A stretch of DNA of 38,078 nt from a virus, in IMG/VR virus record IMGVR_UViG_3300047359_000479, positions 1-38,078 of that record; one strand, written 5' to 3'. Below are positions 27,129 to 29,722 of the stretch, one piece after another (positions within the stretch are counted from its first letter, which is position 1; each line of letters starts with the position of its first letter). The position numbers and the translations under genes were made by a program. Below the pieces are notes generated by a model, which saw nothing but the letters and a program-made list of their open reading frames with translations, did not search any database and was not told the DNA's origin.

Positions 27129-27534
27129 AAATAAAGAACAAATTACTGAAGCAGTACTTAATGAGATACCCGAAGGTATTATACCTTCCAGTATGCCATT
27201 AGATGATATAGTTTTTAAAACATGGTTGACAGGTAGGGGCGGTCAAGGACTACGACTCAGTGATGAAGGACTTAAATTATTTGAGTTAGCAAAACTCAAG
27301 TACTATGATTTTGAATTGGGTCTTGATCCTAAGTCAATGCACAAACGCAGAATTATTGCTCCAGAGGCATTCATACAAGAAATCATAAAAAAGATTAAGT
27401 GTCCATATTACCTCGGTGTCCATAAATTAAGGGGCAAAAAGGGCGAGCCTTTTATTAGAGTTTATGAACATAAAACTGCCATGATGATTACGTTACACGG
27501 CAACTTAAGAGAATATTTAGACTCTAAAGTATGA
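27115..27534 (+). CDS. Conserved phage protein (139 aa)
   Basis: MKFPKNKEQITEAVLNEIPE, MPLDDIVFKTWLTGRGGQGL RLSDEG, YDFELGLDPKSM and CPYYLGVHKLRGKKGEPFIR. The RLSDEGLKLF part looks like a short helix-turn-helix-type segment, but I cannot name the family. The stop codon lies inside the first copy of the 19-base direct repeat of the structured intergenic region. Confidence 0.7.
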   Translation: MKFPKNKEQITEAVLNEIPEGIIPSSMPLDDIVFKTWLTGRGGQGLRLSDEGLKLFELAKLKYYDFELGLDPKSMHKRRIIAPEAFIQEIIKKIKCPYYLGVHKLRGKKGEPFIRVYEHKTAMMITLHGNLREYLDSKV

Positions 27535-27547
27535 CACTTTATGACAC
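27529..27547 (+). repeat. Direct repeat, copy 1 (19 bp)
   Basis: GTATGACACTTTATGACAC; identical copy at 27593-27611. Each copy is itself an internal tandem of the 7-mer ATGACAC. Confidence 0.85.
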
Positions 27548-27592
27548 GTTAGCAAACAACCTAACTTAAGTGTACCCCATACGGCTTCCGCG

Positions 27593-27611
27593 GTATGACA
27601 CTTTATGACAC
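27593..27611 (+). repeat. Direct repeat, copy 2 (19 bp)
   Basis: Second copy, 64 bases from the first. Between the copies lies the imperfect hairpin CATAC..GTATG. Confidence 0.85.
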
Positions 27612-27644
27612 TTGCTACGAAAAGTAGCATTATAGAAAATTAGG

Positions 27645-27652
27645 TATAAATA
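27645..27652 (+). promoter_or_regulatory. T4 late promoter, exact consensus
   Basis: TATAAATA, identical to the T4 late -10 element. The expected transcript would begin at about the hairpin at 27656 and end at the terminator at 27954, about 300 nt. Confidence 0.65.
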
Positions 27653-27756
27653 GAAATGTAGGAGGGTCCTACATAGTAGCATTTTTTACACATTTGAAAA
27701 AACCTTTTTTAGGTGTTAAAAAACTACTCCTTTGCATTACACACACGGAGACGACA

Positions 27757-27879
27757 TTGAAGAAATTCTTTTGCACAACGCAACACTGTATGCCCAGAGG
27801 CGAAGTATTAGGAGAAGTCATGTTATTTGTAACAACGACTTGGATTATGATTCACTCAATAGGGCAGATTAGCATTTAA
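27757..27879 (+). CDS. Possible small protein (40 aa)
   Basis: TTG start with GGAG 6 bases upstream; it encodes a KKFFCTTQHCMPRGEVLGEV segment and a hydrophobic end (MLFVTTTWIMIHSIGQISI). A second, better ribosome site (AGGAGA) stands before the internal ATG at 27821, giving only 19 residues. Weak evidence; the region could just as well be an RNA. Confidence 0.25.
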   Translation: MKKFFCTTQHCMPRGEVLGEVMLFVTTTWIMIHSIGQISI

Positions 27880-27921
27880 AAATCTAATATCAGTTCCTCA
27901 AAGAAAAGACTCAGAAAATCA

Positions 27922-27954
27922 AAATGCCCATTTCGCAAGATTTGGGCATTTTTC
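27922..27954 (+). terminator. Rho-independent terminator
   Basis: AAAATGCCCA / TGGGCATTTT, 10-bp stem with a 12-base loop, ending in TTTTT. It insulates the lipoprotein gene from upstream transcription. Confidence 0.8.
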
Positions 27955-27957
27955 TAT

Positions 27958-27986
27958 TGACATTGGGTACCATTTTATGTATACTG
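27958..27986 (+). promoter_or_regulatory. Sigma-70-like promoter for the lipoprotein gene
   Basis: TTGACA (27958-27963), 17-nt spacer, TATACT (27981-27986). Its spacer shares TTGGGTAC and ATTTT with the promoter at 30388. Confidence 0.75.
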
Positions 27987-28018: not shown

Positions 28019-29722
28019 ATGACATTTTATCGACATATTATAATTGTTCCTTTACTAGCAATCATCACTGCATGTGGTGGAGGTGGAGGCAGTGGAGACA
28101 CTGCTGGGGCAATCATCGGTGGTACAATCGGTGGTAATAGTAGTGGCGGCAATAACAGTTCTAACGCATCCGTATCAATGACTGCAAGTAAAACAAGTGT
28201 TGTAAAAGGTGATAGTGTAACAATATCTTGGTCTAGTTCAAATGCATCCTCATGTACAGCCTCTGGTTATTGGTCAGGTAGCAAGTCATTAAGTGGTAGT
28301 GAAAACTTTGCAATGGATAGTTATGGCGACTACACGTTCTCTCTTAACTGTTCAGGTGGTACTGCAAGTGTAGATGTTACTGTCAATGATGAAGACAGTG
28401 AAGGCGGATGCACCAACCCTCATAGTGCAAAAATCAAAGAAGAATACTTAGGTGATTTTGATATACCTGTACCGCAAAATTCATTTGGAGAAGGGCATCT
28501 TAAAGCAATCGGCTTTAAAGATTTTGGTGTTCAATGGGTATGGGAAAATTACAAAAACAAAACCAATAAAGTAGAAAACTGTACTAAAACAGAATACGTC
28601 AAATTAATGTATAGAATGACATTGCGCCAACTAAAAGAACATGGTGTAGAAACTGCATGGGTATATAACTTTGGTTACTGGAACGATCATACAGAAGAAA
28701 CGTGGACTATTAACCATAGTCGTAAACATGTAAGTGATTGGCAGATAGAATATATCGCCGAGACTGCCCAAGAGTTAGGAATGAATATGCACTATGCATG
28801 GCAGTTTTTAGCATTAGACGATAATAATACACCCTTGTTTCCCTTTAATGGTATGGTTTATGTTGACCGAGCATTATTAAAAAGAATTATGGATAGCCAT
28901 GAAAAACATATGATTTGGGAAGCAGAACGATTAGAGCAATTGGGTGTAGGTGGCATGTCAGCAGATTGGAGTGCTATGTATGTTTGCATGTGCGGACTGT
29001 ATGGTGAAATAGATCAAACTGAAGCCAACTGGCTTAGATCATATTACATGGAACGTATGGGAGGCATTGTCACAGAAATTAAAGCAAGATTTAGTGGTGA
29101 GGTATATGTAGGGGAAGGCATATTATGGAATGATAGCCGAGTCTTAGATCAAGTCGACGGAGTTGTGTTTAGTTTGCCTAATATGTTTAGTAAGGGCGAA
29201 GAAGACGAAGCCACAGTCGAATTAATGGAAGAACGTGTATTAGAATATTCAAAGCAACATTATGATAATTGGACGTGTAATACTCCACAACCATGTTGGG
29301 AATATACTACATATGATCTTCCCCCTGTGATTTGGAATCTGTTCGCACAAAGTCATAAGATGTTTTTAAGTACAGGTTGGAAAGAAGACGGCTTCTGCAC
29401 CGAAGGCACATATGATGGCGTAACATATGAAGGTGAATGTATGCAGTGGAATATCCCAACAGATTTTTCAGCACAAGCACTTTTTATAGAAGGTATGCTC
29501 AGAGCAATTGATAAAGACCCGTGGTGGAACACAAAAGGTACTACAGCAAGTACTGCATATTGGTTAACAGATACTATAATTCCCAATAGTACTGAAACCC
29601 TTGCTTCTGGTATAGAAGGCTTCCCGAATATTTCACAATCAGTGAGGGGTAAGCCAGCAGAAAAAATTATTAAAGCCTGGTACACAGGCGAACACGAACA
29701 ATACAATCCGGAGTATGAATAG
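28019..29722 (+). CDS. Lipoprotein with Ig-like domain and TIM-barrel glycoside-hydrolase-like domain
   Basis: 567 residues. A lipobox IITAC then CGGGGG predicts a membrane-anchored lipoprotein. A Gly/Ser/Asn linker leads to an Ig-like domain (SKTSVVKGDSVTISWSSSNA, CTASGYWSGSK, YTFSLNCSGG). From about 140 on, a large domain with ETAWVYNFGYWND, LGMNMHYAWQFLALDD, VGGMSADWSAMY and EVYVGEGILWND recalls TIM-barrel glycoside hydrolases (GH113-like), which I cannot prove; Asp/Glu at strand ends (ADW, GEG) could be catalytic. CGGGGG starts with this Ig type are common in marine bacterial surface proteins, so the gene was probably taken from a host. A phage-encoded surface lipoprotein suggests altered cell surface, e.g. 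superinfection exclusion. Confidence 0.7.
   Translation: MTFYRHIIIVPLLAIITACGGGGGSGDTAGAIIGGTIGGNSSGGNNSSNASVSMTASKTSVVKGDSVTISWSSSNASSCTASGYWSGSKSLSGSENFAMDSYGDYTFSLNCSGGTASVDVTVNDEDSEGGCTNPHSAKIKEEYLGDFDIPVPQNSFGEGHLKAIGFKDFGVQWVWENYKNKTNKVENCTKTEYVKLMYRMTLRQLKEHGVETAWVYNFGYWNDHTEETWTINHSRKHVSDWQIEYIAETAQELGMNMHYAWQFLALDDNNTPLFPFNGMVYVDRALLKRIMDSHEKHMIWEAERLEQLGVGGMSADWSAMYVCMCGLYGEIDQTEANWLRSYYMERMGGIVTEIKARFSGEVYVGEGILWNDSRVLDQVDGVVFSLPNMFSKGEEDEATVELMEERVLEYSKQHYDNWTCNTPQPCWEYTTYDLPPVIWNLFAQSHKMFLSTGWKEDGFCTEGTYDGVTYEGECMQWNIPTDFSAQALFIEGMLRAIDKDPWWNTKGTTASTAYWLTDTIIPNSTETLASGIEGFPNISQSVRGKPAEKIIKAWYTGEHEQYNPEYE

Follow-up and report, generated by a model that had tools for sequence, protein, structure and literature searches.

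Features of the locus

The stretch analysed here (the window) is a 38,078-base sequence from an uncultured virus, with a T4-superfamily phage gene set (DNA polymerase, SbcC/D-like nuclease, ligase, QueE and others). The DNA polymerase is nearest to those of jumbo phages of Sinorhizobium and Agrobacterium, followed by phages of Serratia, Erwinia and Cronobacter, at about 44–50% identity, and a 128-kb relative, G001, covers most of the window at 83–92% DNA identity. Relatives were gathered via both genes flanking the region and the promoter-hairpin pair described below was scanned for in 2.9 million viral contigs; the relatives are mutually related, so sequence counts are not counts of independent events. 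The region comprises two separate things, both described on the plus strand: a TATGACAC repeat array and, downstream of it, a late unit at 27645–27957, whose carriers are uncultured marine T4-like bacterial viruses. The late unit opens with a T4-type late promoter, TATAAATA (27645–27652), with a predicted +1 at 27658, and the hairpin GTAGGA-GGG-TCCTAC occupies predicted positions +1 to +15 (27658–27672). The leader continues through a second, AU-rich hairpin (27675–27728) and a ACACACAC-type spacer with the Shine-Dalgarno GGAG (27740–27750, the GGAG at 27747–27750), invariant in alignment A2, to a 40-aa ORF with a TTG start (MKKFFCTTQHCMPRGEVLGEVMLFVTTTWIMIHSIGQISI, 27757–27879). The motif TTCCTC (27894–27899) lies between the stop codon and an intrinsic terminator (27921–27957) formed by a 10-bp stem (27921–27952) followed by TTTTT, with a folding energy of −16 kcal/mol. 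A sigma70-type promoter, TTGACA-17-TATACT (27957–27985), begins right past the terminator and serves the gene at 28019–29722; its position is kept in relatives. The elements named by an earlier sequence-only reading were recovered as described, namely the exact late promoter, the perfect 8-bp GGG-loop hairpin (counted over 27656–27674), the GAAAA-loop hairpin (27614–27628) and the strong terminator; the 40-aa ORF and the downstream sigma70-like promoter had been overlooked. A 166-nt region folds better than its shuffles (z −2.97), a simple shuffle test that only moderately favours structure. The second leader hairpin was set aside as a conserved element, having no RNAalifold support for covariation and being missing in other clades. 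The product of the gene at 28019–29722 measures 567 aa and combines a lipoprotein-like N-terminus with a serine-rich domain; it is conserved in many relatives and has no Pfam or PHROG match.

The upstream repeat array

The array consists of two identical 19-mers, GTATGACACTTTATGACAC, at 27529–27547 and 27593–27611, the second lying 64 bp from the first. Together they hold four TATGACAC units, 10 bp apart inside each pair, where chance predicts 1.95 for both strands of the entire window. The stop codon (27532–27534) of the upstream 139-aa gene sits within the first copy, a feature missed from the sequence alone. The hairpin said to be flanked by the repeats (27578–27597, CATACGGC-TTCC-GCGGTATG) has one mismatch, its 3' arm belongs to the second copy and its pairing is better in the relative L008. 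Further downstream, the GAAAA-loop dyad is surrounded by a weak sigma70-like promoter, ATGACA-17-CATTAT (27605–27633), which overlaps the second repeat pair. L166 has a better sigma70 match at this place (TTGACA-18-CATAAT), and the last TATGACAC repeat may therefore double as a −35 element. The dyad itself, exact in the window, was rejected as a conserved stem, its outer pairs being disrupted in several relatives with the core sequence retained.

Relatives that all retain the late unit carry from none to five copies of TATGACAC, with pairs 41–64 bp apart, near whole helical turns of DNA. The array was rejected as an essential component of the late unit because it is missing from many relatives and, judged by this comparison, its phased 10-bp units form a set of their own, limited to certain clades, that the late unit does not appear to need. 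In L030, L101, L193, L197, L203 and L205, TATGCATATAGGTTAT or close variants lie upstream of the late box, in place of the TATGACAC array of other clades. Other T4-like phages (L113, L114, L125, L126, L130, L174 and L183) have arrays of TATGACAC units between convergent genes, a location that argues against a purely promoter-linked role, and some of these arrays carry palindromes like ACATTTTTATGTACGAAAAAGTGT. At L174:2856–2990 and L183:1849–1980, TATGACA units and repeated ACATTTTTATGTACGAAAAAGTGT palindromes occur together between convergent genes. The array probably represents a set of protein-binding sites. The sequence-only reading had also suggested an origin or recombination site, which we consider improbable for the array and its hairpins. 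Direct repeats at helical spacing, as in iteron origins, are present in the 10-bp units and the near-helical pair distances, arrays recur between convergent genes, where a promoter is unneeded, and a single array occurs within the 128 kb of G001. However, the AT-rich unwinding region or skew turn expected of such origins was not found, the array having a GC content of 43% against 37% for the window and G001 showing no skew turn at its array, and many relatives bearing the late unit have no array at all. For an origin function as such, nothing beyond the spacing speaks, and the claim is unsupported.

A T4-type late promoter joined to a conserved hairpin

Taken as a bare 8-mer in a window this rich in AT, TATAAATA is not rarer than chance (2 found against 4.65 expected), and its significance derives from its conserved position. 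In 34 distinct sequences of uncultured phages the core ATAAATAG is invariant and is followed, 5 or 6 nt from the end of the box, by the hairpin. The late TATA box of T4 begins at −13 and covers −13 to −6 (PMC2988020), and this rule, combined with the 5–6-nt spacer, makes the stem start at +1 or +2. Provided that the rule applies here, the predicted RNA begins on a paired base in 32 of the 34 sequences and has one unpaired 5' base in the other two. The promoter shares with T4 late promoters (gp55/gp33/gp45) the 8-bp TATAAATA box, the absence of a −35 sequence, the location upstream of ORFs and the presence of gp55 homologs, here in related large phages, whereas the first box base, which may be T, C, G or A, and the hairpin at the predicted +1 set it apart. 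A gp55-like late sigma is encoded by L114 and by four large hairpin-bearing phages; a search of G001, a perhaps incomplete genome, gave no gp55 match, and the window too is incomplete. In G001, 24 of 43 ATAAATA sites lie at most 80 bp upstream of an ORF, compared with a mean of 7.4 for 21 same-letter permutations, among which ATAAATA ranks first for this enrichment. Leader hairpins were rejected as a general trait of late promoters, a stem 3–6 nt past the box occurring in 15 of 144 TATA-like site clusters, which is a mild excess over other offsets that are themselves not independent. Most late promoters of the same genome have no hairpin at that place and few ATAAATA sites of G001 precede any stem there; the rarity of stems at the other G001 boxes therefore suggests that the hairpin marks a chosen transcript. 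Directly after the late-type boxes of L060, L062 and L078 there are possible pseudoknots, such as GAAG-TTAGGGTT-CTTC-TTAAAAACCC.

The hairpin of the window, GTAGGAGGGTCCTAC, is identical in 29 of the 34 sequences, the others carrying GCAGGGCGGTCCTGC (three) or GCAGGGTGGTCCTGC (two), and the loop GGU is retained in all of them. The stem is short, with 6–7 bp and about −7 kcal/mol. Spacer bases, flanks and upstream genes vary among the 34 loci while box, stem and the 5–6-nt distance are retained and, since it occurs after differing upstream sequences, the unit behaves as a module of its own. Conservation in close relatives, the check proposed for the region as a whole, thus came out strongly for the GGG-loop hairpin and in some clades only for the repeats. 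Scans that left stem bases free revealed a second family, in which promoter and hairpin (ATAAATA, 5–6 nt, G[TC]AGG[AG]NGGTCCT[AG]C) precede an unrelated gene in L217, L218 and L223–L230, mostly large contigs of up to 343 kb, the large phages among them belonging to the T4 superfamily. The encoded protein measures approximately 250 aa and may contain a zinc ribbon. Homologs occur in Stenotrophomonas phages and in Xanthomonas phage XacN1, where the gene adjoins that of the tail sheath; in the isolates XacN1 and CM1 the gene is present without the hairpin. An H-type pseudoknot, without an Rfam match, lies between hairpin and Shine-Dalgarno, just 5' of the latter, in L217, L218 and L223–L230, and is retained in the hairpin-less isolates (L231 and L232, which are XacN1 and CM1). 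Its stem 1 (ACACTCT/AGAGTGT or ACCACCT/AGGTGGT) and stem 2 (GGTAC/GTACC, GGTGT/ACACC, GGCGT/ACGCC or GGCTC/GAGCC) display clear compensatory changes.

Across both gene families the consensus is GYAGG-RNGGU-CCURC, in which part of the constancy follows by construction from bases fixed in the search pattern; within the family found through its flanking genes, the constancy of the hairpin bases is not of this kind. The second stem pair (positions 2 and 14) was left free in the search and is a standard pair in all 37 sites (31 T-A, 5 C-G and 1 T-G), so that the stem is conserved through compensatory change. The C-G pair is seen in two large phages as well as in a single clade of the family with the small ORF, and probably arose more than once. 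At position 6 every site has a purine that faces U, and all four bases are found at position 7. No Rfam family reached its gathering score anywhere in the window, hairpin included, the promoter-hairpin pattern had no match in the genome collection, and the hairpin had none, with up to three mismatches, in the five related isolates Phosso, Atu_ph07, BF, XacN1 and CM1. Among ten whole records searched, six contain exactly one exact match and a seventh hit, with three mismatches, looks like chance; hits in L212 and L213 were likewise dismissed as chance (tRNA region). The inverted repeat lies at +1, at a constant distance from the TATA box, and might also act as DNA, in the form of a dyad operator that covers the late promoter's start site. 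This seems rather remote, as the G-T facing bases of several variants and the odd, variable centre fit RNA pairing better, and in the distant phage L061 the dyad in this position is spaced differently.

The encoded protein and the proposed fate of the late mRNA

Among relatives the small ORF has 39–52 codons and a single C-terminal hydrophobic segment, predicted to lie in the membrane. Its start codon (TTG, or ATG in L036 and L039) and Shine-Dalgarno are conserved in the 34 sequences. The main groups have a mean dN/dS of about 0.2, and a small diverged group has one of 0.4. Searches with the ORF gave no match of meaningful E-value in Pfam or PHROGs and no convincing one in phage genomes. The product would be a membrane protein of 39–52 aa. 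AC-repeat stretches directly 5' of the Shine-Dalgarno recur in the late leaders of these phages (for example L072, L061, L054 and L047). Comparison of the 34 sequences shows promoter, stem, spacing and ORF to be conserved, and likewise the terminator in most clades; in the group L024–L028 the terminator has no clear T tract. The late RNA of roughly 300 nt suggested by the sequence-only reading is supported by comparison, but as an mRNA for a small protein and not obviously a non-coding RNA; a purely non-coding RNA was rejected on account of the purifying selection on the ORF.

The same selection weighs against a regulatory RNA released from the 3'UTR as the main product, an explanation that we regard as very doubtful. 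TTCCTC is retained in 25 of 30 otherwise diverged 3'UTRs against an average of 0.15 in shuffles, a contrast that is inflated by shared ancestry and is given little weight. The Rfam family Yfr10 matches 27889–27965 with 36.3 bits, below its gathering score of 43, and two relatives with 32–33 bits. Yfr10 carries the motif ACUCCUCACAC (PMC2518516), common to Yfr10 and Yfr1 (PMC6778093), and the window has in common with it a UCCUCA motif followed by a terminator. Unlike Yfr10, however, the match is under the gathering score and is located in the 3'UTR of a coding mRNA, and the nearest DNA polymerases are those of Proteobacteria jumbo phages, not of cyanophages. The likeness to Yfr10 is a lead and not family membership.

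Taken together, 27645–27957 is best explained as a monocistronic late unit in which the 5'-terminal hairpin probably shields a strongly expressed late mRNA against 5'-end-dependent decay, an interpretation drawn from comparative evidence in which the +1 position, the late timing, the mRNA stabilisation and the membrane location of the protein are all inferred. A gp55-type late RNA polymerase would start at about 27658 and the first 15 or so nucleotides of the RNA would fold into a nearly blunt 5'-terminal hairpin of the consensus given above. The triphosphate end would thereby be hidden from 5'-end-dependent decay of the RppH and RNase E type, and the short mRNA would be long-lived. An unstructured AC-rich stretch would then present the GGAG and the TTG start, and the terminator would end the RNA at about 300 nt. 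Stabilisation of mRNA by 5' stem-loops is established in E. coli, and a stem at the first base is known to protect mRNAs against pyrophosphate removal and 5'-end-dependent cleavage by RNase E (review PMC3997798 and works it lists); from this known arrangement the hairpin is taken to stabilise a late mRNA that would need to be made in quantity. According to PMC3014915, an action of RppH on T4 mRNAs had still to be established. As in the E. coli ompA and papA leaders, a stem-loop at or near the 5' end is followed by an unstructured stretch and then the Shine-Dalgarno; unlike in those leaders, sequence and RNGGU loop are conserved, the element is tied to a T4-type late promoter and to two unrelated genes, and stabilisation is here a prediction. 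The leaders of T7 gene 10 and of T4 gene 32 also have 5'-terminal mRNA-stabilising stem-loops. The leaders of T4 gene e and I-TevI similarly combine a late promoter with mRNA structure. In T4 that structure prevents early translation, and its 5' half is missing from the late transcripts (PMC3014915), whereas here the whole hairpin lies within the predicted late transcript.

Against stabilisation counts the near-invariance of the hairpin sequence, which together with the kept GGU loop exceeds a purely structural need, and a protein-bound operator therefore remains a serious rival. The hairpin-free majority of late promoters in the same genome, the negative gp55 search in G001 and the shortness of the stem also weigh against stabilisation. 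As the main competing explanation, less probable though of some weight, the hairpin would be the operator through which an RNA-binding protein, of the phage or of its host, governs how the late mRNA is translated or what becomes of it. Conservation of GGU and of most stem bases beyond pairing, next to a preceding loop position that is free, fits such recognition, as does the occurrence of the motif before two unrelated genes with one true match per genome, and T4 provides precedents for protein-bound leader hairpins in gp43 and gp32, which act on their own mRNAs (PMC3014915). Conversely, the hairpin of the window lies approximately 85–100 nt upstream of the start codon, away from the ribosome-binding site, and no candidate binding protein emerged. 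A more ambitious combination, which we put forward as a long shot, would make GYAGG-RNGGU-CCURC at +1 an undescribed, factor-recognised RNA element of late mRNAs in the T4 superfamily that has been put to use before two unrelated genes, with the same mRNA releasing from its 3'UTR a regulatory RNA whose seed is UUCCUC, such that one transcript would yield both a membrane microprotein and an sRNA.

The locus links a T4-type late promoter with a conserved hairpin at the predicted message start, a combination that precedes two unrelated genes and occurs in uncultured phages that are widespread, and indicates a conserved family of unannotated 39–52-aa predicted late membrane proteins. If the proposed stabilisation is true, these phages would set the stability of selected late mRNAs through the first 15 nt of each, and the hairpin would be a short 5' element, both testable and transferable.
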